Source: a virus
IMG/VR virus record: IMGVR_UViG_3300000101_000154
Location: 1-24,617 of that record
Length of the DNA stretch: 24,617 nt
Strand: one strand, 5' to 3'
The notes under the pieces are model-generated. The model worked only from the letters and a program-made list of their open reading frames with translations, did not search any database and was not told the DNA's origin. Made by a program: the position numbers and the translations under genes. Of the stretch, positions 2,918 through 24,617 are shown piece by piece (the first letter of the stretch is position 1; each line of letters opens with the position of its first letter).

Positions 2918-3334
2918 TTAACGATTTTTAAGAGTTGCTAACTTTTCTACTACATTATCGATGTTGATAGTAGAATACAATCCAGGATGTAATGGCTTGG
3001 GATACTTATCACTTCCAACCCAAGCATACCCAGAATGTTCATCATTTAGAACAGGGGAAAACTCTTCGGGTACTTCACAAAAGAATGTGTGATATGCAAA
3101 TGTGTTGTTAACAAATTTTTGTATAGGAACTAATTTTAAATCATCGTCCCAATAGTTAATTTCTTCTTGGCATTCTCTTTTTAAACCGTCTAGTAATGTT
3201 TCATTCTTTTCAATTTTGCCACCAGGAATAGACCAAGTAGGATTCTTAGATTCATTTCGTAATAGATATAATGATCGATCAGTTGATTTACTGTAGAAGA
3301 AAATACCAGCAGATTGATTAATGATAATTGCCAT
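2918..3334 (-). CDS. Nudix hydrolase
   Basis: A 138-residue single-domain protein. The Nudix box (consensus GX5EX7REUXEEXGU) is at residues 39-61: G39, E45, R53-E54 and E57-E58 are all present, preceded by TWSIPG. The Gly normally found after the EE pair is Asn (N60), a tolerated change in some members. Nudix enzymes hydrolyse nucleoside diphosphates linked to another group X, such as oxidised dNTPs, ADP-ribose, NADH or capped RNA ends. The substrate cannot be chosen from the motif. Small Nudix genes occur in T4 and in many marine T4-like phages. The gene is the last of the minus-strand group gp14-gp15-Nudix, 30 bases after gp15, but has its own late-type promoter 5 bases before the ATG and no Shine-Dalgarno. 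Confidence 0.92.
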   Translation of the reverse strand: MAIIINQSAGIFFYSKSTDRSLYLLRNESKNPTWSIPGGKIEKNETLLDGLKRECQEEINYWDDDLKLVPIQKFVNNTFAYHTFFCEVPEEFSPVLNDEHSGYAWVGSDKYPKPLHPGLYSTINIDNVVEKLATLKNR

Positions 3335-3339
3335 ACAGT

Positions 3340-3347
3340 TATTTAGT
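3340..3347 (-). promoter_or_regulatory. Late-type promoter 5 bases before the Nudix ATG
   Basis: Read on the minus strand the sequence is ACTAAATA, then ACTGT, then ATG. The 5-base spacer puts the predicted +1 on the A of the start codon. No Shine-Dalgarno is present between promoter and ATG or within the preceding bases. Confidence 0.55.
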
Positions 3348-3364: not shown

Positions 3365-4960
3365 TTAAATAACTATACTGTAATCACCTTCGTTATAATA
3401 ACCTTCGTATGACTTCATCCATTGAGCGGGCAATCCAGGTTGAACAGAATCAGCAGGAGTTGCAGACCATCTGTATTGAATCTCTGTTGTTAGATTTGTT
3501 ACGTACTCAAGACCAGCAAGATTAGCACTTGCATCGAAAGAAACAAACCATTGCATAAGAGTTGCATTGAATTGTAAAATATCATTTGTTCCTGCTTCTA
3601 CAATCGTGTATGCAGTTCCAGTACCGTCTGGTTGAACATTATTCATAGTAAATTTAGTACCTACATTGTTGTCTGGAGCACCATAGAGTCTAAAGTCTGT
3701 TGTTCCTATCGTTGCAATTTGATACTTAACAGTAGGCATTAAAGTATTTGCAAGTTGTGATTCAGGCGCAATTGATTTTCCTGTTTGACTACCTATAATT
3801 GTTCCCCAAGATGGAGTATCAGATGCAATGTCACTGACTAACAAATATCTAACATTTGGTATCGGCCCTGGTAAACCTGAATTAGGACCTGATATTTGAG
3901 GGTTTATAACTGCTGTTACTGGCTCTAAAGTATTTTGTGGTAATGTATCTTCATCAACGTTAAAAATTAAATAACGATCATCAAGAGGATCAACAACAAT
4001 TGTCCCTACAATTTCTGTATCCATATATGGATTGTCTAATGTAATCTGTGAAATACCTGGACGATATGCACCATACATATTTAATATTGATGACCAATAT
4101 AAATCGGTATCTGGATTAACAGGTTTTTCTAACGCAAAGTTAGATGGTTGATCTGGTTGATCTTGTGGTAACAACTGTAATGAGTTACCTATAAATAATA
4201 ATTGATAACCATATGGCGATATCTTTTGTCTTGTACCTAATAACAAATCATCATCTTGCATGTCATCAATAGTTTTACCTTCAAAAATAGAAGTAATAAT
4301 CTTGTTGATAACACCATACTTTTTAAGTTTAGAAGATGTAGTAATCCACATGGGTAAGTAAAATTTCCATGACATAACATCAATTGGATTACCTGTTCCT
4401 TGTGGTATACTACGAGATGAGAACGTAAGTCCATCCTGATATACAATTGTTAATGATGTCCAGTCTACGAAATTGTCTGTACTTTGAATTTCTAATGAAG
4501 GATTAAACAATGTTCCCAATTGCTCAATCAATTCTAATTTTTGCTGGTAGTTAGTTGTCCAAAAATCAACTTGTAATCGAAGTGTATATGGAACTGGCAT
4601 CAACTTCTCAACAGTAAATGCTTGTCCCTGTTCGTCACCGTAATTCTGTGAGCCAGCATCATATTTTCTTTGACGTACATTTTGTTTCTCTACAAAGTAA
4701 GGCTCTTGCATACGTTTTTGATCATACTCTAATCCGTTAATAAAATAAGTAATCAAAGGTGCAGAGGGCAGGTTGGATGCCGAGTTGTTCGCAATAATAG
4801 TTGCGGCTTGTCTACTAGAGTCACCATATTGAATTGGTACTCTAACTAATATAGGATTGCCGTTAGGATCTTTTCCTGCTGTTACATACCAGTTACTAAA
4901 AATCTTAGCAAACTGTAATAAAAATCTTCTTATCTGATTGTCGTAAAAATATTGTGCCAT
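3365..4960 (-). CDS. gp15: Proximal tail sheath stabilisation protein, gp15-like
   Basis: A 531-residue protein. Its N-terminus YFYDNQIRRFLLQFAKIFSN and then VRVPIQYG match the pattern of T4 gp15 (YFYN..FRRY...FSN, then IRVPITY). In T4, gp15 forms the ring that closes the sheath and tube and gives the tail its docking face for the neck. Similarity to the T4 domain continues to about residue 225 (LIEQLGTLFNPSLEIQ, and then the MSWKFYLPMWI strand). T4 gp15 is only 272 residues, so roughly 300 residues after position 225 are an extension of unknown role, rich in beta-type sequence and Asp/Pro/Gly turns. A similar long form exists, as far as I recall, in marine T4-like phages. Its ATG overlaps the TAA of the upstream gp14 gene in a TAATG junction, so translation is probably coupled. 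Confidence 0.88.
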   Translation of the reverse strand: MAQYFYDNQIRRFLLQFAKIFSNWYVTAGKDPNGNPILVRVPIQYGDSSRQAATIIANNSASNLPSAPLITYFINGLEYDQKRMQEPYFVEKQNVRQRKYDAGSQNYGDEQGQAFTVEKLMPVPYTLRLQVDFWTTNYQQKLELIEQLGTLFNPSLEIQSTDNFVDWTSLTIVYQDGLTFSSRSIPQGTGNPIDVMSWKFYLPMWITTSSKLKKYGVINKIITSIFEGKTIDDMQDDDLLLGTRQKISPYGYQLLFIGNSLQLLPQDQPDQPSNFALEKPVNPDTDLYWSSILNMYGAYRPGISQITLDNPYMDTEIVGTIVVDPLDDRYLIFNVDEDTLPQNTLEPVTAVINPQISGPNSGLPGPIPNVRYLLVSDIASDTPSWGTIIGSQTGKSIAPESQLANTLMPTVKYQIATIGTTDFRLYGAPDNNVGTKFTMNNVQPDGTGTAYTIVEAGTNDILQFNATLMQWFVSFDASANLAGLEYVTNLTTEIQYRWSATPADSVQPGLPAQWMKSYEGYYNEGDYSIVI

Positions 4961-6717
4961 TATGTGCCATCACTCGGTGGGTTGTCATCTGGTGCTAAAT
5001 TTAATATCGAACTTAATCCTTGTGCCGATGAAACATTGCCACCAGTCTGTTGAACGAAAATATTCGCATCGTTATTTATAAATCCTGAAAGTTGTGAAGT
5101 ATCTTCAGAAGTATAACCAGTTGTTGTTCTTACATCTTCACTCACTCTCAACCAAAGAGCACCTGACCAACGATATAAAACATTAGGTGTATAATCTATA
5201 CGCAAGAAATAGTCTCCAACTTGCGGAGATGCAGGGAATGATATGCCTGCTCCTGCGGGTAAACCGTTTGGTGGAGTACCCTCACCACTTAAGTAACCTG
5301 ATGTGTAACCAAAGTCACGTGGAGTTGATCTTGCTATGTATTGAAAACGAGGATCACAGTCAGCACGATAGTCCATTGTATTCGGACCATAAGGTTCCGT
5401 ACCTGTGAACCCTGCCGCTGTTGGGTCTTGGTCTGCTGTTGCGTAAGTGTTATCAGCAGTACCATATGGACCTACAACAGGTCCTGAAATATTAACTGTA
5501 AGAAGTTTTGTTCCTTCTAATTGTCCTGAACCAGTTGAAGACATCTCTGGTGCTTCAACTGCAATTGATAAGTTTGCTTGTACAAACTTTTCTATCATTG
5601 CTTCTAGGTCAATGTTTTGTTCTTTATGTTTAGCCTGCATCACATCAATAACTTCTTTAGGTATTCTTATACCTGATGATTCATACTTGTACTTGTCACT
5701 TTTCATTGTAATGACTTCACCAGTTGAACTCAGAGGATTGTTTCCTGGCATCCATGATCGAACATCGACTGGAGGAGCGGGCTGATTTTCTTTATTTGAT
5801 GGGATACCATTTGCTTCAAAGATACCATAGCCGGGTACAACATATAAATCTGATGTATCGTAACCTGCTTTAGGGACAATACGTGCCGCTTCTTTTAAGT
5901 TAGCATCATTGATTCTAAGATTTTCATTGTAACGACCCAAGACATCTTTAAGAGTTCTTCCTGTATCAAGTACCCAATAAGGATCTGGATCAGTTGCACC
6001 TGGCTTAGTTCCAGCTGGTACTTCTTGTAATGCAAGATAGTTCTTGTCTCCGAATGTCATTGTATACCCTGCAGGGTATGTTTTGTTTTTATCCCAGTCG
6101 CCTAAGTAATTGTCTTTATCAACTGGGTCACGTAAAATATCTGCAAACTCTTGGCTGTCTACTAGTTTCTCACACTTGATACGCCATAGATGAGGATACC
6201 AATCGATTGCAAATCCTTCACTTCCAAAGTTAGCATCAGTAATTTGATAAAATCTTTTAAGTGCTGTTGGAAATTCAGTTGCGTTGTCGTTTAATGGGTT
6301 GTAGTCTAATAAGTGAGGTAGTTCAATAACATCACCAACCATAAGTTTTCTACCTATAATATCAATCATGTCATTATAATGAACATTGATAAAAATAGTA
6401 TCATTACTTAAGAATAAACCGAACTGACTAAGATCAAAGTCTAAGTTTTGTACAGAGTAATGACCACGTAATCGATAAATATCCTTTTCATATTTTCGAT
6501 CTCTGTTCTCTAAGAACAGCAAGTCTTGTATGTTTGTAGGGTCCATAGCACTATATTCAGGCTGTGTAAAATCTGCTGAAGGTCCTTGATCCATCGGTCC
6601 AGCATACTTGTGAATATATAAATCAGTACCGCCCACAGTCAATTGCTCAGATATATTTCTGTCTAAAAAACGATAATCGTTTTGCTTCTGTTCCCGGTAT
6701 AAACTTAGTCTTGGCAT
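4960..6717 (-). CDS. gp14: Neck protein, gp14-like, with carbohydrate-binding-like insertions
   Basis: A 585-residue protein (T4 gp14: 256). Residues about 60-200 resemble the gp14 neck domain: LLFLENRDRKYEKDIYRL, then LSQFGLFLSNDTIFINV, then GDVIELPH, then DWYPHLWRIK. The neck joins the portal vertex to the tail, and immediate co-transcription with gp15 repeats the T4 order 14-15. Two aromatic modules are inserted. Residues 206-250 (GDWDKNKTYPAGYTM ... PDPYWVL) look like a CBM5/12-type carbohydrate-binding fold. Near residue 510, GDYFLRIDYTPNVLYRWSGA with a following LWLRV is a second W/Y-rich module. The start at MPRLSLY is what I recall for marine homologues, and a late promoter lies 5 bases upstream with no Shine-Dalgarno. 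The gp14 name rests on pattern and synteny and not on alignment. Confidence 0.78.
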   Translation of the reverse strand: MPRLSLYREQKQNDYRFLDRNISEQLTVGGTDLYIHKYAGPMDQGPSADFTQPEYSAMDPTNIQDLLFLENRDRKYEKDIYRLRGHYSVQNLDFDLSQFGLFLSNDTIFINVHYNDMIDIIGRKLMVGDVIELPHLLDYNPLNDNATEFPTALKRFYQITDANFGSEGFAIDWYPHLWRIKCEKLVDSQEFADILRDPVDKDNYLGDWDKNKTYPAGYTMTFGDKNYLALQEVPAGTKPGATDPDPYWVLDTGRTLKDVLGRYNENLRINDANLKEAARIVPKAGYDTSDLYVVPGYGIFEANGIPSNKENQPAPPVDVRSWMPGNNPLSSTGEVITMKSDKYKYESSGIRIPKEVIDVMQAKHKEQNIDLEAMIEKFVQANLSIAVEAPEMSSTGSGQLEGTKLLTVNISGPVVGPYGTADNTYATADQDPTAAGFTGTEPYGPNTMDYRADCDPRFQYIARSTPRDFGYTSGYLSGEGTPPNGLPAGAGISFPASPQVGDYFLRIDYTPNVLYRWSGALWLRVSEDVRTTTGYTSEDTSQLSGFINNDANIFVQQTGGNVSSAQGLSSILNLAPDDNPPSDGT

Positions 6718-6722
6718 ATATA

Positions 6723-6730
6723 TATTTATC
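6723..6730 (-). promoter_or_regulatory. Late promoter 5 bases before the gp14 ATG
   Basis: On the minus strand the sequence is GATAAATA, then TATAT, then ATG. The octamer is the same as the one in front of gp13, gp18, gp19 and others here, but the spacer is only 5 bases, and there is no Shine-Dalgarno. A leaderless gp14-gp15 transcript is predicted. Confidence 0.65.
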
Positions 6731-6838: not shown

Positions 6839-7981
6839 ATGGCTAGACGAAAGCAAAAAACAGTTTATCTAACACCTGAACCTAAATGGGAACAGTACAA
6901 AAGTATTGTGGATCCTGAGGCACAGGCTAAGGCATTCCAAGACTGTCAATATTTTATACGTACTGAAATTGGCGATAAGAAAAGATTGATGCGGTGCAAG
7001 ACATGGATCAAAAAAGATTCTGGATGGTCTGATGAAGATGTAGAAATTATTTTACGTAATCCAGATTGGAACTTTAACTCTCTTGCAAACTCAGTTTGGT
7101 TTAGTGATAAAGTTGGGTATATGCCCAAACCTCATACTGATCATATCGTAAAGAGCAAAGAAGAATGGCTAGAGAAAGGCGAGAAGATTGCTCAAGTCAA
7201 AGAAGAAAAAGCAAAAGACAAACCCAATCGTCCTTCTATACAAGATATAATGAAAGATAAATTGTTAGAGGCTGGTGGAGAGATAGATGGTGTTATGGAT
7301 CAATTTTTTGAAGACGAGATAAAAATTGATAACAAGTTTAATGCTCAGATTATGAGAATTTTAAACACATTCAATCCATTAGCAAATCATATTCCTCACT
7401 TAGTTGAAACTTACGAGAAAGAACAGAAAGAATTTAAAGAAGTAATTGAAGGCACAGACGAACAGTTAGTTGAAGCATACAATCATTTCAATAAAAAGAA
7501 ACTAAAGCAGACTGTGGTAGCCTATGATACTGTAATTAGTGTTCTAAACTCTTATGCTAGTCTTAAGATTGCGTCTAGGGCTAAACGTAAGACTAAGCCG
7601 ATCACACCTGAGAAAGCAACACAGAAGTTAAAGTATCAAAAACATTTTGAGTGTGAAGCAACAAAACTAAAACTAGAAAGCATTCGTCCAGCAGAACTGC
7701 ACTTGTCTAAAGAAGCATGGTGCTATGATACTGCTAAACGAAAACTGCATCACTATATTGCAGATGACATGAGTGGAGAAATGTTTGTTAAAGGAAACAC
7801 ATTGTATGGATTTGACAAGGCTAAGAGTGCAATTAAAACATTGCGTAAACCCAAAGATCAAATAAAAGAAATTATGGGCAGTAAGCCCGCGGCACGTAAA
7901 TACTTTGATGATATCAAAGCAGTCGGAGTCAAACCAAAAGGTCGTTTCAACGATCAAATGATTATTTTAAAGGCGTTTTAA
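6839..7981 (+). CDS. Conserved protein of unknown function of marine T4-like phages
   Basis: A 380-residue, Lys- and Glu-rich protein. I recall relatives in T4-like cyanophages with the same ends (start MARRKQKTVYLTPEPKW; end RKYFDDIKAVGVKPKGRFND), but no known function. Residues 1-105 form a Trp-rich N-terminal part. A charged linker with KPNRPSIQDIMKDKLLEA follows. Residues about 150-250 are helical (NAQIMRILNTFNPLANHIPHL). The C-terminal 120 residues contain KYQKHFECEATKLKLESIRP and a repeated basic pattern, which might bind nucleic acid. No enzyme motif was recognised. AAGGGG is placed 4 bases before the ATG. A sigma70 promoter in front argues for early expression and therefore against a purely structural role. 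The next gene begins 3 bases after its stop. Confidence 0.85.
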   Translation: MARRKQKTVYLTPEPKWEQYKSIVDPEAQAKAFQDCQYFIRTEIGDKKRLMRCKTWIKKDSGWSDEDVEIILRNPDWNFNSLANSVWFSDKVGYMPKPHTDHIVKSKEEWLEKGEKIAQVKEEKAKDKPNRPSIQDIMKDKLLEAGGEIDGVMDQFFEDEIKIDNKFNAQIMRILNTFNPLANHIPHLVETYEKEQKEFKEVIEGTDEQLVEAYNHFNKKKLKQTVVAYDTVISVLNSYASLKIASRAKRKTKPITPEKATQKLKYQKHFECEATKLKLESIRPAELHLSKEAWCYDTAKRKLHHYIADDMSGEMFVKGNTLYGFDKAKSAIKTLRKPKDQIKEIMGSKPAARKYFDDIKAVGVKPKGRFNDQMIILKAF

Positions 7982-8746: not shown

Positions 8747-8754
8747 GATAAATA
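8747..8754 (+). promoter_or_regulatory. Late promoter for gp13
   Basis: GATAAATA is followed by 22 bases that include the Shine-Dalgarno TAGGA (8762-8766) and then the ATG at 8777. This is the standard leadered geometry of the window, with the same spacing as at 17987 and 22693. Confidence 0.75.
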
Positions 8755-8776: not shown

Positions 8777-9562
8777 ATGGCATCAGAACAATTATCAGTC
8801 CCAAACGGCGAAAACCTCGAGCAACTTAAAGAGTCTATGTTTGATAACATCCGCTATAGGCTTGGCGACGGCATTGTAGATTTAGAGTTAGATCCAGAGC
8901 ATTACGAAGCCGCATATAATTATACAGTCAAAACATATAGACAACGTGCAGAAAATTCTGTACAAGAATCTTATACATTATTAACTGTAGACAAAAACCA
9001 AGATACTTATACATTGCCATCTGAATTTATTAATGTTCGACAATGTTATCGAAGAACAATTGGTCTTGAAACAGGTCCTGGTGCATCATCATTTGATCCA
9101 TTCTCATCTGCTATCTTAAACACTTACTTGTTGAACTACAACTATGCAGGTGGATTAGCAACGTATGACTTCTATGCAGGGTATGTAGAACTAGCCGCAA
9201 GAATGTTTGGTGGGTTTGTTATATACACATTTGATCCTGTTACTAAAACAATCAGATTTGTTAGAGACTTTAAAGGCTCTGGTGAACAGATTCTTATCTG
9301 GGCAGATGTAACACGTCCAGAAACTTCTCTCTTACAAGATCCGGGTATTGCACCTTGGATAGAAGACTTTGTATTAGCAACTGTTACAATCTCTATCGGA
9401 CAAGCACGTGAGAAATTCTCAACTATTGCAGGTCCTTCTGGTGGCACTGCATTAAACGGTGCGGCAATGAAAGCAGAAGGTATGGCAGGACAAGAGAAAG
9501 GTCTCAAAGACCTCAGAGACTACGTAGACTACTCACAACCTCTTACTTGGATACAAGGATAA
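8777..9562 (+). CDS. gp13: Neck protein, gp13-like
   Basis: A 261-residue protein (T4 gp13: 309). The N-terminal helix pair NIRYRLGDGIVDLELDPEHY, then YNYTVKTYRQRAENS, followed by YTLPSEFINVRQCYRR, and the central SSFDPFSSAILNTYLLNYNY are what I recall of gp13 in T4-like cyanophages. gp13 works with gp14 to complete the DNA-filled head so that the tail can dock. In T4, genes 13, 14 and 15 are contiguous. Here gp13 is on the opposite strand from gp14 and separated from it by two non-structural genes. Its TAA overlaps the next ATG (TAATG), indicating coupled translation with a small coiled-coil protein. Confidence 0.85.
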   Translation: MASEQLSVPNGENLEQLKESMFDNIRYRLGDGIVDLELDPEHYEAAYNYTVKTYRQRAENSVQESYTLLTVDKNQDTYTLPSEFINVRQCYRRTIGLETGPGASSFDPFSSAILNTYLLNYNYAGGLATYDFYAGYVELAARMFGGFVIYTFDPVTKTIRFVRDFKGSGEQILIWADVTRPETSLLQDPGIAPWIEDFVLATVTISIGQAREKFSTIAGPSGGTALNGAAMKAEGMAGQEKGLKDLRDYVDYSQPLTWIQG

Positions 9563-9954: not shown

Positions 9955-10575
9955 ATGATTATAGGTGTTACAGGACTTATCAGCAGTGGCAAAGACACAG
10001 CCGCAGATTATCTTATTCGATTTCATGGCTTTAAAAAACTAAGTTATGCAGGCCCATTAAAGGACTGTGTATCTGCTATCTTTGGTTGGGATAGAGAAAT
10101 GCTAGAAGGCACAACTCAATCTAGTAGAGAGTGGCGAGAAGAAGTTGATGAGTGGTGGGCAAAACGATTAAACATGCCTCACTTAACTCCTCGTTGGGTC
10201 TTGCAGTATTGGGGAACTGAAGTAGGCAGACGTACATTTCATAACGACATTTGGGTATCATCAGTAGAAAATCAATTGCGTAAGATAGAAGACAATGTTG
10301 TTATAACCGATTGTCGATTTAAGAATGAAGTTGATGCAATCAAAAATGCAGGTGGAACGACTGTTAGAGTGAATCGAGGACTAGATCCTGAGTGGTTAGT
10401 CGATGCAGTTGACTATAATTACTATCAGAATCCACAAGCACTTGCCAGACTAACTGAACTTGGTGTACATGCTAGTGAATATAGTAGTGTAGGTTTAGAC
10501 TACGATCATACTGTAGACAACAACGGCACGATTGATGACTTGCATAAACATATGGAATTAATAGTCAACAGTTAA
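9955..10575 (+). CDS. Deoxynucleoside monophosphate kinase (T4 gp1-like)
   Basis: A 206-residue P-loop kinase. The start MIIGVTGLISSGKDTAADYL carries the Walker A lysine K13 (G7-x4-G12-K13-D14-T15), a form shared with T4 gp1 (SGVKRSGKDTTAD) and phage dNMP kinases. YAGPLKDCVSAIFGW fits the substrate-binding helix (AGPIKDAL in T4). VLQYWGTEVGR and then VVITDCRFKNEVDAIKNAGG fit the LMQALGTD and VPDTRQDHEMDAARAMGA segments of T4 gp1. The enzyme phosphorylates dNMPs (dGMP, dTMP, hydroxymethyl-dCMP in T4) for phage DNA synthesis in the cytoplasm. It has its own strong sigma70 promoter, as expected for an early gene placed inside a late region. Its 3' end overlaps the convergent HNH-like gene by 18 bases. 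Confidence 0.9.
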   Translation: MIIGVTGLISSGKDTAADYLIRFHGFKKLSYAGPLKDCVSAIFGWDREMLEGTTQSSREWREEVDEWWAKRLNMPHLTPRWVLQYWGTEVGRRTFHNDIWVSSVENQLRKIEDNVVITDCRFKNEVDAIKNAGGTTVRVNRGLDPEWLVDAVDYNYYQNPQALARLTELGVHASEYSSVGLDYDHTVDNNGTIDDLHKHMELIVNS

Positions 10576-10908
10576 GTCTCCTCTGACCCATACAACTTCT
10601 TTTCTTTTTACAACTTCAATACAATTTAAACATATTGTTCTTAGATTTTTAAAGTCTACATTTTGAGGTTGTCCGTCTATGTGATAGACAGTCATTTGAC
10701 TAGGGTATAAACTTTTAAATCCGCATAAAAAACATGTATCATCTTTTTGATATCCTGCTTTTTGCCAAAGATATACAGGCTTTCTTGTCTTGTTTATTTT
10801 ACCGCATTGATTGCACATGCTTCTGTAATGACGTTTACCATTCTTAATATAGTTTACAGCACAGACTTTTGTGTTGCAAATTTTACATATTGGTCTAGGT
10901 AAACTCAT
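10558..10908 (-). CDS. HNH-like zinc-binding endonuclease-type protein
   Basis: A 116-residue protein read from the ATG at 10908. Longer in-frame extensions upstream run through the promoter region and into the oppositely oriented gp18, so they are rejected. Two Cys clusters are visible: C8-x2-C11 with C32-x2-C35, and C59-x2-C62 with C93-x2-C96. Between the last pairs lies VYHIDGQPQNVDFKNLRTIC, which has the H-(I/L)-(D/N)-G...N...NL order of HNH nucleases (H76, N83, N88). The usual CH at the end is C96-I97, so the final metal-binding His is missing and catalysis is uncertain. I recall very similar small proteins annotated as HNH endonucleases in T4-like cyanophages. A perfect late consensus TATAAATA lies 5 bases before the ATG, which strongly supports this start. 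Confidence 0.85.
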   Translation of the reverse strand: MSLPRPICKICNTKVCAVNYIKNGKRHYRSMCNQCGKINKTRKPVYLWQKAGYQKDDTCFLCGFKSLYPSQMTVYHIDGQPQNVDFKNLRTICLNCIEVVKRKEVVWVRGDLTVDY

Positions 10909-10913
10909 ACTAG

Positions 10914-10921
10914 TATTTATA
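10914..10921 (-). promoter_or_regulatory. Perfect T4 late promoter 5 bases before the HNH-like ATG
   Basis: On the minus strand the sequence is TATAAATA, then CTAGT, then ATG. This is the exact T4 late consensus and the clearest of the short-spaced sites. The predicted +1 is the A of the start codon. Confidence 0.8.
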
Positions 10922-10923
10922 AA

Positions 10924-10939
10924 ATACCTTCGAAGGTAT
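10924..10939. repeat. 16-bp perfect palindrome between divergent late promoters
   Basis: ATACCTTCGAAGGTAT equals its own reverse complement over all 16 bases. It lies 2 bases behind the minus-strand late promoter (10914-10921) and 27 bases behind the plus-strand one (10967-10974). It is upstream of both predicted start sites. A protein-binding site, or a hairpin stopping read-through in both directions, is possible. Confidence 0.85.
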
Positions 10940-10966: not shown

Positions 10967-10974
10967 GATAAATA
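10967..10974 (+). promoter_or_regulatory. Late promoter for gp18
   Basis: GATAAATA lies 58 bases before the sheath gene ATG at 11033, with Shine-Dalgarno AAAGGA at 11019-11024. The leader is longer than for most other late genes here and holds a small hairpin. Confidence 0.7.
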
Positions 10975-10993
10975 ATAGTATGAAAAAACAATC

Positions 10994-11006
10994 AGGGTGT
11001 AACCCT
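10994..11006 (+). other. Small hairpin in the gp18 leader
   Basis: AGGGT (10994-10998), loop GTA, ACCCT (11002-11006): a perfect 5-bp stem about 15 bases after the predicted start of the gp18 transcript. It could stabilise the mRNA of this highly expressed gene. The stem is short, so the call is tentative. Confidence 0.4.
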
Positions 11007-11032
11007 CAAAATCATACAAAAGGAATATTATT

Positions 11033-14000
11033 ATGGCACTAACATCACCAGGCGTAGAAGTAAGCATCATTGACGAAAGCCAATACTTACCAGGCGCAAC
11101 AGCATCAATCCCGTTCTTCTTGTTAGCAACAGCACAAGACAAAGCGGATCCAACATCAACTGCAACAGCGGCGGCAACAACTTCTGCGAATGCAGGTAAA
11201 TTATACAGAGTCACTTCTCAACGTGATCTTGTTTCTTTATACGGTAACCCATTCTTTTACACAGCATCAAACGGTACTCCGTTACAAGGCTATGAATTAA
11301 ATGAATATGGATTACTAGCGGCTTATTCAGCACTTGGTATTAGTAATCAGGTATTTGTTCTTAGAGCAGATGTCGATCTAGCAAGTTTAGTAGGATCAAC
11401 AGGTCGTCCAACAGGAGCACCAACAGACGGTTCTTTCTGGTTAAACACAACTTCTTCTACATGGGGAATTAATGAGTTTAATAAGACTACTGGAGTATTC
11501 ACTTCTAAAACACCAATCGTTATCTCTGACTCTACTTTATTGTCAGTAGGTACACCTTTACAATCAGTAGGAAGTATCGGTGACTATGCAGTTGTTGCGA
11601 TTCCTAATTACAGAAATCCTAACAATGACAATGCACCAACATATTGGTACAAGAATAGTTCTAATACTTGGGTTAGTTTAGAATCTGAGGAGTGGTTTAA
11701 AGCATGGCCTGCACTAACAGCGCCTACTTCTAATCCTACTTTGACAGGTGGAGATACTATTAATTTAGTAGTCAACAGCACAAACGTTGCTACTCTTGTA
11801 GTTGCGGCGGCACCAAACAATACAATTACTCAACTAGCGGCAGATATAAATGCTCTAGGTTGGGCTTATGTTTCAGCGGCAGTTGTTAATAACAAACTTG
11901 AAATTTACTCAGCACAAACAGGCGGAGATCAAGGATCACCTGAATTCCCATTCTTTGTTAGATTGAATGGAGCAACTGGAACAATCTTTACAGATTTAGG
12001 ATTTACAGGAACTACAGTAACTGGATTTCAACCAAGAACATTTTATGGAACATCTGCTCAACAACCATTATGGCAATCAGGTCAAGCACAACCGGCCGAA
12101 ACTGGATCTGTATGGCTTCAGGTTAATGGCACAGGATTACAACCAGTAATCTCAGAGTATGATTCAGTTTCAGCATCTTATACTGCTAAAACACCAACTT
12201 TTGCAACTTCTGATTGGAGTCAAATCTATTCAGCAGATACAACAGGTGGACAAGCAATACCAGCTGGTAGTGTTTATGCACAATATGGATTTAATGGTGA
12301 TTATCTTGGATCCCCAGTCTATTACTTCTATAGAGTAGCAACTGGAGCAACAGTAATCAATGGTACAAATACTACACCAGACTTTACTGCAGGACCATAT
12401 GTAGCAAGAGTTCAAATTTCAACTCCTGGATCACAAACATTAAGCAATCCTTACACATTTAACTTAGGTGATGCTACAGATGCATCTGACTTTGTAACTG
12501 CATGGTCAGCGGCAAACATACCTTACACAAGTGCATCAGTTAATGATGATGGATCAATTCAATTACAACACACTTCAGGTGGAGTTATAGTTTTAGATGA
12601 TTTTAATAACACAACAGGTGTTTCTCAAGCATTATTTTCACAAGCAGGGTTCACAACAGCAACAGTAGGTTGTAAAAACGGACCATTTAGAGATGATATT
12701 ACATTTCAACCGACTCAATCTGCAACAACTGGCTCAGGTGCTAGTTTACAAATTTCAGTAACTAATGATTATGGTTACTATGATTTTGATCCAGATGCAG
12801 TCGTTGTAGGTGGTAGTGGACACGCAGTAGGTGACGTTGTTACTTTCTTAGGTTCAGACTTAGGCGGTGCTTCACCAGCAAATGATCTAAAAGTTGAAAT
12901 AACAAGTGTGACAACAGGTGTTGTTACATCTTATACTTTAGCATCAGGAACAGGTGCAGATGCATTCACAACTCAGTTATCTAACTGGAGAGAATTCTCG
13001 TTAACAACAACTGGAGCAGATTCATTAACAGCAAATGAAGGTGCACCAACTGCAATACCAACTAACTTTACTAACTGGTTCTATTCATCAACTAATCAAG
13101 TAGACATTATGATCAACTATGATGGTAATTGGAAAGGTTATAAGTCACAAGGATATGATTCAAACGGATTACCTAGTCCATCTGTAGCAAATGCAACTGA
13201 TCCTAAAGGACCACTTGTAAGTGCGACTGAGCCGACTACACAATCTGATGCAACAGCATTAGTATACGGTGATCTTTGGTTAGACACTACAGATTTAGAA
13301 ACTTACCCAAATCTTTACAGATGGCAGTCAGTTCCAGCAGTAGGTGGCGGTAGTGCTACTGATAAGTGGGTCTTAATCGACAACACTGATCAAACTACAC
13401 CAGCTGGCATCTTATTTAAAGATGCACGTTGGGCAACTAACGGAACAACTAATCCAGCAAATGATCCGATACCAAGTATTGCGTCATTACTAGCAAGTGA
13501 TTACTTAGATATTGATTGTCCTTTATCAGCAAATTACCCACAAGGTATGTTGATGTGGAACACAAGACGTAACTCATACAATGTTAAACAGTATCGTGTA
13601 AATTACTTTAATGCTGACAGATTCCCAACTGCTTCTTTACCAACACAAAAAGATGCATGGGTAACTGCTTCAGGAGATCAATCAAACGGTGCAATGAACG
13701 CAGGTCGTAAAGCACAAAGAGCAATGGTAACTAAAGCATTACGTTCAGCAGTTGACACTAACGTTGCAATTAGAGATGAAGATAACTACTTCAACTTACA
13801 AGCAACTCCAGGTTATCCTGAACTACAACCTAATATGATAGCACTAAACTCTGATAGAGGTGAAACTTCTTACATCGTTGGTGACACACCATTTAGATTG
13901 AAAGATGATGCAACTGAAATTCAGGCTTGGGCAACTAATGCCGCAGGCGCAGTAACAACAGGTGAAGATGGACTTGTAAGTAGAAATACTTATATGGGTC

Positions 14001-14722: not shown

Positions 14723-15370
14723 ATGGCAACAGCCTCAGATACATTAGCAAAACTTTCGGTTCAACCAGAAGGCGGAGCAAACCAAAACTTGTTGATGCCA
14801 AAACTTCAATATAGATTCCGTGTGAACTTTATTAATTTTGGTTTTGACGATGATTCTTCACTTATACTTACTAGACAAGTAGTAGATTGTGCAAGACCAC
14901 AAGTTCAATTTGATGAAATCACAATGAACGTGTACAACTCACGTGTCTATCTTGCAGGTAAACACACATGGCAAACACTTGCTATCAACGTCAGAGATGA
15001 TGCTTCTGGTAATGTATCAAAAGCAGTTGGCGCTCAGTTACAACGTCAATTAGACTTCTTCGAGCAGTCCTCAGCGGCCGCAGGTGGAGACTATAAGTTT
15101 GAAACTGAAATTCAAATCTTAGACGGTGGTAACGGTATCAATACACCAACAGTATTAGAAAACTGGTCATTAGCAGGTTGTTTCTTACAACAAGCAAACT
15201 ATCAGACTCTAAACTATGCTACATCTGATGCAGTGACTATTGCTATGACTTTACGTTACGATAACGCAGTCCAGACAAACGCTGGTGGCGATCTTAACGG
15301 CATACCTGGAGCAGGTGTTGGACAGTCTGGTCTACAGACTTTCCCAAGTGCAATTGGTACTGCTACTTAA
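14723..15370 (+). CDS. gp19: Tail tube protein, gp19-like
   Basis: A 215-residue protein (T4 gp19: 163). LQYRFRVNFINFG, LTRQVVDCARPQVQFDEITM and YNSRVYLAGKHTWQTLAINV, with the final strand SDAVTIAMTLRYDNAVQT, follow the tube-protein pattern. gp19 stacks in hexameric rings to form the rigid tube through which DNA passes, inside the gp18 sheath. The extra length is an N-terminal stretch and a Gly-rich C-terminal tail (GGDLNGIPGAGVGQSGLQTF). Position directly after gp18 matches T4. A strong terminator follows, so the gene is probably monocistronic and highly expressed. Confidence 0.93.
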   Translation: MATASDTLAKLSVQPEGGANQNLLMPKLQYRFRVNFINFGFDDDSSLILTRQVVDCARPQVQFDEITMNVYNSRVYLAGKHTWQTLAINVRDDASGNVSKAVGAQLQRQLDFFEQSSAAAGGDYKFETEIQILDGGNGINTPTVLENWSLAGCFLQQANYQTLNYATSDAVTIAMTLRYDNAVQTNAGGDLNGIPGAGVGQSGLQTFPSAIGTAT

Positions 15371-15434: not shown

Positions 15435-15442
15435 GATAAATA
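15435..15442 (+). promoter_or_regulatory. Late promoter for the tail-tube-like gene
   Basis: GATAAATA lies 21 bases before the ATG at 15464, with a strong Shine-Dalgarno TAGGAGA at 15449-15455. It follows directly after the gp19 terminator. Confidence 0.75.
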
Positions 15443-15463: not shown

Positions 15464-16660
15464 ATGGCTTCAGGTTCAGTCGATAGACTACTAGATGGTA
15501 TTCAAACAGGCATTGTTGACCAGCTAACCGGTCGAGTATACCTACGTGACTATACTCATGCGGCTAAGAATTTCTTACCCGGCGGAATGGCCAATGTTGG
15601 TAAAGTCAAATTTACTTTTCATACTTACTTTCAAATTAATCCTTCAGCATACATTCCACCAACAGGACAGAACTATGGCTTATTAGTTAAGTCAATTAAA
15701 TTACCTACATTTAATATGGATGTACAAGAAATGAATCAATACAATAGAAAACGTTTGATTCAATCAAAAATTAAATATCAACCAATTGAAATTACATTCC
15801 ATGATGATAATGCATCACAGATTACTGCAATGTGGGACGCATACTATAGATATAATTATGCAGATTCTTGGAATCCTATTGTTGCTCCTTTTTCTACTAA
15901 CAACACATCAAAAAAAGATTATAACAGACGTAACATATATGATCCATCAATAACAGGTGACACAGAATATGGTTATAGGGGAGATGCTGTCAGCCGCGGT
16001 GGAGAAGATGTTGGACAAAAAATTCCTTTTTTTAATAATATTACTGTTTATGGTTTATGGGCAGGAAACTTTATTGCATATACTTTAATTAATCCTATTA
16101 TTACAACATTCGGTCACGACACATATGATTATGCTGACGGCGGCGGAACAATGCAGAATAGAATGACAATCAATTATGAAACTGTAGTTTACAATACAGG
16201 CAAGATAGGAGATATAGGACCTGATAGTGAAGGATCAGAGTTAGTAGCAGGATTTGGTGGACCGGATAGTTATGATAGAAGGGAAAGCCCACTTGAGCAA
16301 GGTGGAAGCAATCCTCTTGATATATTCAAAAGAATGCAAAATTTAGGTGATGATGGATTTGGACTAGATGATGTTCGTACAATAGGACAACTATACGACG
16401 GTGGATTAGATACAGTCGTAGATAGTGCAAAAAATTATCTTAAAAAAGGTTTACAAGAAGCAGTGTTAGGGAAATTAGGTTTAGGTGGAGACACTGATGT
16501 ACCTACTAACGCATCAAGCCCAGCGATGGTAAACATTTCTAATCAAGGAATAGTAACTGCCGCAAACAATAACAAGACTACTGTACCCCAATCAGTAGAC
16601 GAGGGTACTGCAATAGCAGATGCTGTAAATGCTGGAACGCAAACAGGCGGACTTGCATAA
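15464..16660 (+). CDS. Tail-tube-like structural protein (possible tube-baseplate junction protein)
   Basis: A 398-residue protein. Residues about 45-250 have the layout of a tube-fold protein: VKFTFHTYFQINPSAYIPP, then YGLLVKSIKLPTFNMDVQEM, YNRKRLIQSKIKYQPIEITF with HDDNASQITAMWDAYYRYNY, and, after an insertion, TVYGLWAGNFIAYTLINPII and MQNRMTINYETVVYN. The order (strand, specific LPxF segment, then a strand with 'ITFHDD') resembles phage tube and tube-initiator proteins (T4 gp19, gp48, gp54). Residues after 250 form a flexible, Gly/Asp/Asn-rich tail. Position after gp19 and its own late promoter agree with a tail role. T4 gp54 or gp48 equivalence is a guess that needs structure comparison. 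The TAA overlaps the next ATG (TAATG). Confidence 0.75.
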   Translation: MASGSVDRLLDGIQTGIVDQLTGRVYLRDYTHAAKNFLPGGMANVGKVKFTFHTYFQINPSAYIPPTGQNYGLLVKSIKLPTFNMDVQEMNQYNRKRLIQSKIKYQPIEITFHDDNASQITAMWDAYYRYNYADSWNPIVAPFSTNNTSKKDYNRRNIYDPSITGDTEYGYRGDAVSRGGEDVGQKIPFFNNITVYGLWAGNFIAYTLINPIITTFGHDTYDYADGGGTMQNRMTINYETVVYNTGKIGDIGPDSEGSELVAGFGGPDSYDRRESPLEQGGSNPLDIFKRMQNLGDDGFGLDDVRTIGQLYDGGLDTVVDSAKNYLKKGLQEAVLGKLGLGGDTDVPTNASSPAMVNISNQGIVTAANNNKTTVPQSVDEGTAIADAVNAGTQTGGLA

Positions 16661-17046: not shown

Positions 17047-17493
17047 ATGCCTCGTAGAAGAAAATACGCACAGGGTATCTATACTGTAAAAAATCAACAC
17101 AAGTATGTAGGTAAAGGTAAGCCTATGTATCGTTCAGGTTGGGAACTCACGTTTATGATTTTTTGTGATGAAAATGACAAGATACTGAAATGGGCAAGTG
17201 AATCAATTGTTATTCCTTATATGCATCCTTTTAAAGGCAAACGTACTAATTATATACCTGACTTTTTTATTGTTTACCAAGACAAATATGGAAAAACAAA
17301 CGCAGAGTTGATAGAAATAAAACCTAAAGCAGAGAGTATTATAACAGAAAAAGTTAGAAACGCAAGACAACAAGCAGTCATCGCAATCAATCATGCTAAA
17401 TGGCATTCAGCAAAAGCATTTTGTAAAGCACAAGGTATTAAATTTAGGGTAGTCACAGAAGATGATCTTTTCTACAATGGACGTGGAAAGTAA
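17047..17493 (+). CDS. gp4: Head completion protein, gp4-like (PD-(D/E)XK nuclease fold)
   Basis: A 148-residue protein. YRSGWELTFMIFCDENDKIL, WASESIVIPYMHP, NYIPDFFIVYQDKYG and ELIEIKPKAE follow T4 gp4 (head completion) and the TnsA-like nuclease pattern. Candidate catalytic residues are E33, D72 (in PDF) and E90-x-K92, giving E...PD...ExK. T4 gp4 (also called gp50/65) is needed to make filled heads stable and joinable to tails. The presumed nuclease activity would trim or process DNA ends at packaging, which is inference from the fold. The basic N-terminus MPRRRKYAQG could contact DNA. TAAGG upstream (17035-17039) is a weak Shine-Dalgarno. The next gene encodes the small terminase, grouping two packaging functions. 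Confidence 0.88.
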   Translation: MPRRRKYAQGIYTVKNQHKYVGKGKPMYRSGWELTFMIFCDENDKILKWASESIVIPYMHPFKGKRTNYIPDFFIVYQDKYGKTNAELIEIKPKAESIITEKVRNARQQAVIAINHAKWHSAKAFCKAQGIKFRVVTEDDLFYNGRGK

Positions 17494-17500
17494 CTAAATA
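17493..17500 (+). promoter_or_regulatory. Late-type promoter 5 bases before the gp16 ATG
   Basis: The sequence is ACTAAATA, then GATGT, then ATG, overlapping the last base of the gp4 stop codon. The nearest purine-rich stretch (GGAAAG, 17485-17490) is 15 bases from the ATG, too far to act as a normal Shine-Dalgarno. A leaderless gp16 mRNA is predicted. Confidence 0.55.
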
Positions 17501-17505
17501 GATGT

Positions 17506-17988
17506 ATGACAAAAAAACTTGAAGAACTATTTGATATAGCATCCAGTGATGAAAATGAACTGAATGAGCCTATTCCAGGTGTAGCACAAGAAGTTACTAA
17601 AGAAGCATTAAGTAATTTAGAAAAGATTGAAACTGCTTTACCTACAGTCAGAGGACTAGAAGCATCTGATAGAGAGATGGATGAACTGAGTAAGAAAGCA
17701 GAGACAAGTTTTCAAGACCTTATGGATCTAGGTATGCAAGTAGATTCACGTTTTAGTGGAGATATCTTTAGTGTTGCTAGTAACATGTTAAATCATGCTA
17801 TTACTGCTAAGACTGCTAAACTAAACAAGAAATTAAAGATGATCGACTTACAATTAAAGAAAGCAACACTAGATCAACGTCAAGCAAAGGCTGATGAGAA
17901 GATTGATAATATTCCTTTAGGTGATGGACAGAACTTAGATCGTAATGAATTACTACGAGTTTTAAGTGGGAAAAACACAGAGGAATGA
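17506..17988 (+). CDS. gp16: Terminase small subunit, gp16-like
   Basis: A 160-residue, mostly helical protein, close to T4 gp16 (164). Both start with a short LxxLFDI/LLDI motif (here TKKLEELFDIASSDENE), followed by an acidic linker. The central helices here are ETSFQDLMDLGMQVDSRFSG and FSVASNMLNHAITAKTAKLN, with the basic stretch KKLKMIDLQLKKA, corresponding to the T4 central coiled-coil oligomerisation domain. A short acidic C-terminal tail ends in TEE. gp16 forms rings that regulate cutting and packaging by the large terminase gp17, which is not in this window. The TGA overlaps the next late promoter (17987-17994). Support is pattern, length and the gp4 neighbour; sequence identity to T4 is low. 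Confidence 0.8.
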   Translation: MTKKLEELFDIASSDENELNEPIPGVAQEVTKEALSNLEKIETALPTVRGLEASDREMDELSKKAETSFQDLMDLGMQVDSRFSGDIFSVASNMLNHAITAKTAKLNKKLKMIDLQLKKATLDQRQAKADEKIDNIPLGDGQNLDRNELLRVLSGKNTEE

Positions 17989-22692: not shown

Positions 22693-22700
22693 AATAAATA
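22693..22700 (+). promoter_or_regulatory. Late promoter for the tail fibre gene
   Basis: AATAAATA lies 22 bases before the ATG at 22723, with Shine-Dalgarno TAGGAT at 22708-22713. The spacing is the same as in front of gp13 and the 208-aa gene. Confidence 0.65.
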
Positions 22701-22722: not shown

Positions 22723-24617
22723 ATGGCACAAAGAAATATTGACTTCGGAGCATTTCCAGACGATCCAGATGCAGATGCTATACGATCGGCATTTGAGAAA
22801 GTTCAGTTAAATTTTACAGAAGTATTTGCAGGACTCGGCGATCAAGCAGTAGTATCAGTTAACAAAACAAATGGGCCAGGAGTCTATTTAGTTAATGGTT
22901 CATCAGTAGGAAATGTAGTACTGGGTGCTAATATTTCTTGCGTACAATTCAGTTCAACAACATTATCATTGGGTACGTCACCTGGCACTGGACCAGGTTC
23001 TGTAACTATTACAGATTCTACTCAAACACTATATGTTGATATGCCAAACAATGTTGCAAACATTGCAAATGTAATAGTATCAGGCACAGTACAAGGTAAT
23101 ACAATCATCGGTAACTTATCCGGAGACTTCGGATATATATTAGCAAATACATCATCTGGTAATGGTAACATTGTTGGAAACAATATGTCATTATCTAGGA
23201 CTTTAGCAGTAACAGGTAATATCACAGGTGGTAATTTAAATTTAAGTACAGGACAAATTACAGCAGGTCCTATAATAGCAGGAAATGTTTATGCTAACTC
23301 AGGTGTAGTCAAAGGAACAACTTTAGACGGTTCTTTAGTAACTGCCGCACAGCCAAACATTACTTCATTAGGAACATTGACATCATTAGATGTACAATCA
23401 ACAGTAACTGCTGTAGCATTTACTGCAAACACAGGTTTATTCTCTGGTGATGCAGGTGGATTATCAAATATCGTAGGTGCAAATGTAACTGGAGAAGTTA
23501 CTAATTCTGCAACAGCAAATGCTGTAGCAGGTGCTAACGTAAGTGGAGAAGTTACTAATGCCGCTACTGCTAATGCAGTCGCAGGTAGTAATGTAAGTGG
23601 TGCAGTATCATTTGCAACAACCGCTAACGCAGTAGCCGGAGCAAATGTTTCAGGTGAAGTTACTAATGCCGCAACAGCAAACGCAGTTGCTGGTGCTAAT
23701 GTTTCAGGTGCAGTAAGTTTTGCAACTACTGCTAACGCAGTAGCAGGTGCTAACGTAAGTGGAGAAGTTTCATTTGCACAAGTAGCAAACTCAGTAGCCG
23801 GAGCAAATGTAACTGGACAAGTTAGTTTTGCAGGTACAGCAAATAGTATTACAGGAGCAAATGTCTCAGGTGCAGTAGCCAATGCTACACATGCAGTATC
23901 ATCCGATAGTGCTAATGCAGTAGCCGGTGCTAATGTAACAGGAGAAGTACCTTTTGCACAAGTAGCAAACTCAATCGCAGGTGCTAATGTAACTGGACAA
24001 GTAACATTTGCAGGAACTGCTAATGCAGTTGCTGGTGCAAACGTAACAGGTACTGTAGCAAATGCAACATATGCAGATACATCAGGTACAGTCGAAACTG
24101 CCGCACAACCAAACATAACAAGTACAGGTACTTTAACATCTGTTGCTGTAACAGGTAATACTGACTCAGGAAATTTAAATACTACTGGAGTAGTATCAGC
24201 AACTGGTAATATTACAGGTGGAAATGTATTAGGTGCAGGTGGTGTCTTTACATATGTATCTGGAGACGGAGCCAACTTAACAAACATATCTGTATCAACA
24301 GGTTCATATATCGAAAACGGTACAAGTGAAGCAAGAGTTGATGCTAGTGGACCATTCAGAGTTTCAGTAGGTGGAACTGCAAATGTACTACAAGTTAATA
24401 ACTCAGGAACAGCAGTCGCAGTAACAGGCTCACTGTCTGCATCAGGTGGTTTAGATAATAACATAAACTTTAATAGCACTTCTAACTTAGGCCCAGTAGG
24501 TAATGTAACAATTACTGGTGGTGTTAGCGGAGCATTCTTACATACAGATGGAGCAGGTACATTAACTTGGAACACTGGAACTGTACAGCCAACACAAGGT
24601 ACAGATACACAAATCAT
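22723..24617 (+). CDS. Tail fibre-like protein with repeat array (3' partial)
   Basis: The frame is open for 631 codons and runs off the window. The N-terminus AQRNIDFGAFPDDPDADAI followed by RSAFEKVQLNFTEVFAGL is the kind of baseplate-attachment start I recall in marine T4-like tail fibres. TAAQPNITSLGTLTSL (near residue 208) and TAAQPNITSTGTLTSVAVTG (near residue 459) are copies of a motif widespread in phage fibres. Between them, residues 252-452 form an array of 18-residue units with consensus GANVSGEVTNAATANAVA, presumably a long beta-type shaft. The sequence after the array has VTGNITGGN-type repeats and then SYIENGTSEARVDASGPF, leading toward a tip that is not in the window. The fibre probably recognises the host surface. 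The start is fixed by the late promoter and Shine-Dalgarno. Confidence 0.88.
   Translation, partial: MAQRNIDFGAFPDDPDADAIRSAFEKVQLNFTEVFAGLGDQAVVSVNKTNGPGVYLVNGSSVGNVVLGANISCVQFSSTTLSLGTSPGTGPGSVTITDSTQTLYVDMPNNVANIANVIVSGTVQGNTIIGNLSGDFGYILANTSSGNGNIVGNNMSLSRTLAVTGNITGGNLNLSTGQITAGPIIAGNVYANSGVVKGTTLDGSLVTAAQPNITSLGTLTSLDVQSTVTAVAFTANTGLFSGDAGGLSNIVGANVTGEVTNSATANAVAGANVSGEVTNAATANAVAGSNVSGAVSFATTANAVAGANVSGEVTNAATANAVAGANVSGAVSFATTANAVAGANVSGEVSFAQVANSVAGANVTGQVSFAGTANSITGANVSGAVANATHAVSSDSANAVAGANVTGEVPFAQVANSIAGANVTGQVTFAGTANAVAGANVTGTVANATYADTSGTVETAAQPNITSTGTLTSVAVTGNTDSGNLNTTGVVSATGNITGGNVLGAGGVFTYVSGDGANLTNISVSTGSYIENGTSEARVDASGPFRVSVGGTANVLQVNNSGTAVAVTGSLSASGGLDNNINFNSTSNLGPVGNVTITGGVSGAFLHTDGAGTLTWNTGTVQPTQGTDTQI
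23476..24078 (+). repeat. Array of eleven 18-codon units in the fibre gene
   Basis: Units of 54 bases start at 23476 and repeat in register, except the eighth, which is 24 codons long; the last begins at 24034. Each begins G-(A/S)-N-V-(S/T)-G. Early units alternate between E-V-T-N-A-A-T and A-V-S-F-A-T-T types. Protein conservation is much higher than DNA conservation. Confidence 0.93.

Follow-up and report, generated by a model that had tools for sequence, protein, structure and literature searches.

How a late promoter can serve a gene when its core ends only five bases before the start codon is the question raised by an HNH-like gene in the window studied here, a 24,617-base stretch of viral DNA. 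On the minus strand, the octamer TATAAATA (10914-10921) is followed by CTAGT and then by the ATG at 10908-10906, giving a distance d, the number of bases between TAAATA and the start codon, of five. T4 late promoters place TATAAATA at -13 to -6 according to the part of the source available to us (PMC1524935), and on that placement a spacer of five bases means that +1 is expected on the A of the ATG. T4 late transcription depends on gp55, gp33 and gp45, again as far as the accessible text goes (PMC2988020). We think it quite likely that a class of T4-type late promoters yields leaderless mRNAs here; both the start site and the leaderlessness are inferred, as there are no RNA data. In the mechanism we propose, a TAAATA core fixed 4-5, rarely 6, bases before the ATG would lead the late RNA polymerase of the phage, formed by the host core with a gp55-type sigma, to initiate on the A of that codon. 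The ribosome would then begin on the 5'-terminal AUG of the resulting leaderless mRNA without a Shine-Dalgarno. Other late genes of these genomes, tail tube included, have this core at a distance of about 18-33 bases from their ATG, often with a Shine-Dalgarno.

The HNH-like gene itself (10558-10908, minus strand, 116 aa, predicted leaderless) has a weak match to PHROG 10822 (E=5e-4). Its reading frame continues upstream as far as a GTG at 11214, but its homologues agree from the ATG on. A palindrome, CCTTCGAAGG (or CCTTTGAAGG), lies 5-8 bp upstream of this TAAATA, at 10927-10936 in the window. It occurs at one place, in the matching position, in each of 11 records of the window's clade, while among nine non-clade records it is found only in T4 and Melnitz, with no TAAATA after it. 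Perhaps it is an operator.

An earlier note on this DNA had pointed to TAAATA sites close before five genes (HNH-like, 160-aa, Nudix, 585-aa and aldolase), and all five are present at the coordinates claimed. Octamer ACTAAATA at 17493-17500 on the plus strand is followed by GATGT and the ATG at 17506 (d=5) of the 160-aa gene (17506-17988, plus strand, predicted leaderless). The name gp16 suggested for this gene could not be confirmed, its match being PHROG 16202, of unknown function. Since the gene before it ends at 17493, the 160-aa gene might also be translated by coupling. The same octamer, ACTAAATA, stands at 3340-3347 on the minus strand, followed by ACTGT and the ATG at 3334-3332 (d=5) of a Nudix hydrolase gene (2918-3334, minus strand, PF00293, E=7.9e-16), also predicted to be leaderless. 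Octamer GATAAATA (6723-6730, minus strand) precedes TATAT and the ATG at 6717-6715 (d=5) of a 585-aa virion structural gene, predicted leaderless, that was earlier labeled gp14 (4960-6717, minus strand, PHROG 11591, E=8.5e-78). This gene is the first of a leftward unit and is divergent from the gene at 6839. The fifth site, on the plus strand, has TAAATA at 2074-2079, then AGAGAT and the ATG at 2086 of the aldolase gene, a distance of six bases for which a leader of one base or none is predicted.

The class II aldolase gene (2086-2820) is present with its start in 9 loci among the best 80 of 596 described below, and within these d=6 holds in 9/9 homologues with 3 distinct start regions. The aldolase was also tried as a clue to the host of the clade, and was set aside as too weak: it is 80% identical to a protein on a Halieaceae-labeled 16.9-kb MAG contig, and then 51-52% to gammaproteobacterial ones.

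TAAATA alone is not enriched in the 24,617-base window (29 found against 32.3 expected). The arrangement TAAATA-N5-ATG, on the other hand, occurs six times, against a mean of 0.68 and a maximum of 3 in 100 dinucleotide-preserving shuffles. These six matches are the four named genes with d=5, a site at 7897-7910 that lies inside a 380-aa gene and is not a gene start, and a site at 10969-10982. The last belongs to the tail sheath late promoter (TAAATA at 10969-10974, plus strand), which serves the gene at 11033 across a 53-nt leader with a Shine-Dalgarno-like motif. Where the sheath mRNA is predicted to begin, the ATG at 10980 opens a 20-codon frame (10980-11042) that overlaps the sheath ATG. 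We considered this ATG as a sixth leaderless start and rejected it. ATG is found there in 25/35 sheath homologues; the other 10, distant homologues among them, have AAG, AAC, TAG or AAA, and two homologues that do have ATG at +1 meet a stop immediately or one codon later. Its replacement in 10 of the 35 means that an ATG at +1 is, on its own, no proof of a gene start. Close relatives show strong conservation of the 53-nt sheath leader. RNAalifold proposes a hairpin within it, but of its four pairs just one has changed on both sides, and the hairpin has no real support.

Other late genes in the window form a contrasting class. The claim that these have TAAATA 21-22 bases before the ATG is correct for the genes at 8777, 15464, 18017 and 22723, and for the tail tube gene at 14723 the distance is 32 bases. 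On the plus strand, the leadered promoter of the head-tail adaptor gene at 8777 lies at 8749-8754 (d=22), that of the tail-tube-like gene at 15464 at 15437-15442 (d=21) and that of the gene at 22723 at 22695-22700 (d=22). The last gene had been called a fibre, a label left without support by the lack of a PHROG match. Among the best 80 of 596 loci, the head-tail adaptor has d=17-26 in 50/50 homologues and a Shine-Dalgarno-like motif in 45/50, and the motif is likewise present in 23/23 tail tube and 35/35 sheath start regions. In the ten longer relatives, too, a broad group at about 18-30 bases, often with a Shine-Dalgarno, stands apart from the genes at d=5.

We asked how far the short distance is kept in relatives by scanning IMG/VR with the 585-aa gene, taking the best 80 of 596 confirmed loci and scoring d for each gene. 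The earlier note had allowed that relatives might lack TAAATA at this position; in the loci scored it is mostly kept, at 4-6 bases. For the 585-aa gene, d=5 holds in 65/76 start regions and d=4 in 6/76 (33 distinct). The remaining 5/76 have ATT behind a Shine-Dalgarno and no ATG. In these five loci (L074, L076, L077, L080 and L081, two distinct sequences) ATT is the apparent start, the Shine-Dalgarno is canonical, and the d=5 arrangement is lost with the start position unchanged. The HNH-like gene has d=5 in 32/34 homologues (18 distinct start regions), the other two, in L078 and L081, having TAAATA-N4-GTG instead. Nudix has d=5 in 48/64 homologues (21 distinct), with 14/64 lacking TAAATA and 2/64 lacking an in-frame ATG, and its spacing is unchanged in homologues that miss one codon after the ATG. 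All of these counts refer to the best 80 of 596 loci, where the 160-aa gene has a single homologue, at d=5. In larger records, ten listed members of the 160-aa family have d=5 with differing spacers and flanks, and an eleventh has d=4. In relatives of the 585-aa gene with about 63% protein identity, the upstream DNA has diverged while TAAATA and its distance are kept. The whole window has no match in the phage collection by megablast, and the best named relatives of the 585-aa gene are in jumbo phages, Atu_ph07 (39% over 69% of the length) and PA5oct-type phages (47% over 33%).

In this same sample of the best 80 of 596 loci, a Shine-Dalgarno-like motif is found in 0/165 scored start regions of the 585-aa, HNH-like and Nudix genes, as opposed to 103/108 for the adaptor, tube and sheath genes (p about 6e-70, uncorrected for relatedness). 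The 80 loci are redundant, and within them TAAATA occurs 166 times at d=5, while the other 14 orders of its letters occur 0-10 times. These 166 are part of 362 TAAATA-ATG pairs at 0-40 bases.

Longer records show the same class. Fourteen IMG/VR relatives were searched for the pattern and ten of them scored gene by gene, with G010, G011, G013 and G014 excluded. Per-gene counts used a simple ORF caller, TAAATA exactly at d=5 and ATGs in the first quarter of the frame, and the null was 40 dinucleotide shuffles of each upstream 60 bases. By this measure the window has 3 genes against a shuffle mean of 0.03, the HNH-like gene being missed because its frame is open further upstream. The ten relatives give 12 against 0.85 (G001, 267 kb), 10 against 0.23 (G002, 89 kb), 8 against 0.10 (G003, 79 kb), 6 against 0.03 in each of G004, G005 and G006, 3 against 0.15 (G007), 4 against 0.05 in both G008 and G009, and 7 against 0.00 (G012). 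HTVC008M has 11 (mean 0.85), its relative G015 has 10 (0.62) and Mosig has 6 (0.57); Melnitz, with 3 (0.62), and P-SSM2, with 4 (0.78; 0.8-0.9 expected), are weak and near noise. There are no such genes in T4 (mean 0.68), Syn9 (0.15) or S-PM2 (0.47), and there is one (0.72) in the first 240 kb of Atu_ph07. Without the first-quarter rule, T4 has 2 and Syn9 has 1 at d=5, all of them internal ATGs. Genes with TAAATA at 18-30 bases number 31 in T4, 19 in Syn9 and 19 in S-PM2. The shuffled null that the earlier note had proposed thus yields 0-0.85 genes per record, against 3-12 in the window, the ten longer relatives and HTVC008M.

Pattern searches with a reversed control agree with these counts and give 13 matches against 1 in G002, 14/7 in G001, 14/4 in HTVC008M, 10/5 in T4, 7/1 in G010, 3/0 in each of G011, G013 and G014, and 15/9 in the whole Atu_ph07 record. 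By pattern alone, no excess over the reversed control is seen in GAP32 (5/8), PA5oct (15/12), KVP40 (2/2), SCTP-2 (24/19) or Phosso (3/2). Alphaproteobacterial T4-like phages were considered as general carriers and rejected, Cr30 and phiN3 having zero TAAATA-N5-ATG. For early promoters, a search for -10-like hexamers near ATG in eight genomes found no comparable peak, the largest value there being 12 at distance 7 in G001, which was not repeated elsewhere.

When the clade's proteins are grouped into families, with internal ATGs kept, d=5 is represented in 23 families, d=4 in 11 and each other distance from 0 to 17 in 0-4; d=4 belongs to the same class. HTVC008M, counted in the same way, has 11 families represented at d=5. 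Restricting the count to frames of 70% completeness or more gives 29/89 clade families in which some member has d=4-5. The notion of two arrangements among the late genes, first raised from the window alone, is supported: one at d=4-5 without a Shine-Dalgarno and one at d of about 20 often with it, some families switching between them. The tail-tube-like gene has d=5 in G009 and d=21 in the window, and a gene with the N-terminus MAIDQESFN has d=5 in G002 and d=24 in G001. The G002 large terminase (PHROG 36964) has d=5. A 530-aa frame at d=4 also lies in this phage contig (57837-59426), and to us its N-terminus resembles that of a TonB-dependent receptor. The spacing class, its conservation, the absence of a Shine-Dalgarno and the turnover between arrangements are all direct observations.

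The d=5 class is not confined to the phage of the window, being found in ten relatives and also in the lineage of HTVC008M, a cultured phage recorded as Kyanoviridae with Pelagibacter HTCC1062 as its host on record. All 11 of its d=5 sites coincide with GenBank start codons, and the genes include head closure, DNA end protector, tail tube cap, a baseplate wedge subunit, tail completion, CsgF and a putative tail tape measure. Its DNA end protector and head closure genes are divergent, with two back-to-back TAAATA-N5-ATG in the 26 bp between them, and G015 has the same pair. Among DNA end protector homologues (31 loci found), d=5 holds in 18/24 scored start regions and d=8 in the other 6, which are near-identical. 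The HTVC008M gene at 59714 and the gp2 homologues in L196 and L198-L202 have d=8 with ATT-ATG, the ATT lying at the predicted +1; such cases would give a 3-nt leader. In HTVC008M a Shine-Dalgarno precedes the genes for sheath, tube, portal and major head protein. Neither of its two terminase genes has TAAATA within 45 bases upstream of the annotated start, or a clear Shine-Dalgarno there.

A bS21 gene is present in HTVC008M, G015, Mosig, Melnitz and Atu_ph07, and was not found in the records of the window's clade or in T4, Syn9, P-SSM2 or S-PM2. We rejected bS21 as a general explanation of the class: Atu_ph07 has the gene and shows no class in the half that was scanned, and in the clade records, which have the class, the gene was not found.

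Several features of the promoters and starts bear on where transcription begins. The TAAATA core is preceded mostly by A or G and then by A or C, like leadered late promoters. A gp55-type late sigma gene is encoded by G001 (PHROG 12791, E=3.7e-74) and by HTVC008M; no match to such a sigma was found in the window or in the rest of the scanned clade records, all of them fragments (24-89 kb). The base at the predicted +1 of 91 distinct long-leader clade promoters is A in 52. A preference of late promoters for ATG at +1 was considered and rejected: ATG occupies +1 to +3 in only 5/91 of these promoters, and its presence there is therefore not a promoter habit. Start codons differ between the two arrangements. 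In the clade, d=5 starts comprise 51 ATG and 1 TTG, against 106 ATG and 20 GTG/TTG at d=15-35 (Fisher p 0.009). HTVC008M and G015 together have 20 ATG and 2 TTG at d=5, against 23 ATG and 9 GTG/TTG at leadered starts, a weaker contrast that is not significant by itself (p 0.17). Pooling both groups gives 71 ATG and 3 others at d=5 versus 129 and 29 (p 0.002); ATT counts were excluded from these contrasts as background. Leaderless mRNAs need AUG, according to the part of the source available (PMC3616915), and the ATG bias at d=5 fits this need as it is stated there. The exact start site and the translation of a leaderless mRNA are inferred from these patterns, as is any link to copy number. Late start sites may vary by about a base, and the cases with d=4, 6 or 8 would need a 1-3 nt leader or a shifted or flexible start.

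Other explanations for the short distance differ in what they would have the TAAATA do. With just 9 fixed bases in the motif, chance in AT-rich DNA or misassigned start codons might be suspected. The earlier note had thought an identical spacer hard to explain by AT-richness, and rightly so: chance is contradicted by shuffles of the upstream regions, by permutation of the hexamer, by the counts at other distances and by ten more records, and the Shine-Dalgarno in five loci places the start of the 585-aa gene at the same position, which argues against a wrong start. We regard chance and misassignment as practically ruled out. A/U-rich starts can function without a Shine-Dalgarno, and TAAATA could in principle be an A/U-rich, S1-binding enhancer of translation within a leadered mRNA and no promoter. 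This is very improbable, as enrichment at d=5 is limited to the order TAAATA and does not extend to permutations of its letters, and the two bases before the core match those of leadered late promoters.

A second promoter further upstream may instead supply the mRNA that is translated, with ordinary leaders that lack a Shine-Dalgarno and with the close TAAATA adding little protein. Longer mRNAs may indeed cross 21/51 clade d=5 sites, where a same-strand gene ends within 40 nt upstream and coupling is thus possible. The other 30/51 have no same-strand gene end within 40 nt, the distance itself, besides the promoter, is conserved across diverged upstream DNA, and the 26-bp divergent region leaves no space for another leader unless it began inside the neighboring gene; we find this explanation unlikely. 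Genome compaction addresses the purpose of the arrangement and not the leaderless state, and is therefore compatible with our main reading. Deletions in leaders would have slid promoters up to the ATG, and the leaderless mRNAs would simply be tolerated and regulate nothing. As compaction could produce, some upstream genes end on the TAA of TAAATA itself, at 3/20 d=5 sites in HTVC008M and G015 and at 2/51 in the clade. Yet compaction would be expected to spread short distances, and distances of 0-3 and 7-15 are only sparsely filled; we see it as possible without favoring it.

If the close promoters do make leaderless mRNAs, the arrangement most likely serves mainly genes whose products are needed in low amounts (neck, baseplate and packaging parts, and enzymes), and it most likely saves DNA and uncouples the translation of these genes from that of the high-copy virion genes. 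The HTVC008M terminases, without TAAATA, make the link to copy number only a tendency and no strict functional rule. More speculatively, leaderless translation may have become a regular part of late expression independently in at least two marine T4-like lineages. Promoter position alone would then decide whether an mRNA has a leader, genes could switch by a shift of about 15-20 bases, and the arrangement would set a low dose of packaging, neck and baseplate products relative to high-copy sheath, tube and capsid, perhaps aided by changes to the host ribosome (bS21 in some). We offer this scenario tentatively and doubt that all of it will hold. The inference of independent origins rests on Atu_ph07, scanned per gene over half of its record, lacking the class on one side and on Syn9 and S-PM2 lacking it on the other, and not on a tree.

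According to the available part of one study, attempts to predict middle and late promoters did not succeed in pelagimyophages (PMC7029224). The paper on Melnitz predicts 15 late promoters, and in the portion available "leaderless" appears once, in the title of a reference (PMC9004378). In the accessible text of the AR9 paper, phage transcripts are said to be often leaderless, and the leaders of AR9 itself are 26-491 nt (PMC5312081). T4-type late promoters and leaderless mRNAs are each known, and a regular class combining them was not found in the literature searched, as far as the sources were available; that search, which also turned up no description of a leaderless late mRNA class in T4-like phages, did not cover the Syn9 transcriptome study. 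In these open-ocean phages, one promoter type appears to make leaderless mRNAs as a class. The use of leaderless translation becomes testable, with a defined gene set and leadered relatives as controls, and the arrangement offers a late-promoter signature for pelagimyophages as well as a start-codon rule for annotation.

Set beside known systems, the promoters described here share with those of T4 an octamer core with variable first positions, placement before structural genes on both strands, and a gp55-type sigma gene, here present in the 267-kb relative G001. They differ in that T4 has no gene at d=5 and 31 at 18-30 bases, whereas the window's clade has a separate class at 4-5. The cyanophages Syn9, S-PM2 and P-SSM2 likewise have the TAAATA core at about 18-30 bases, but the d=5 class is absent in Syn9 and S-PM2 and weak in P-SSM2. 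The pelagimyophages HTVC008M and Mosig do have the d=5 class, with 11 and 6 genes, and are recorded as Kyanoviridae, apart from the window's clade. In bacteria, 171 leaderless mRNAs are reported for Sinorhizobium meliloti in the part of the source available (PMC3616915). These bacterial messages resemble the ones predicted here in having AUG at the 5' end and no Shine-Dalgarno. The lambda cI mRNA is leaderless as well, and shares the same two features. Bacterial leaderless mRNAs are mostly known from scattered genes, whereas the genes described here form one class, with one promoter type at a fixed distance, within a single phage transcription program.
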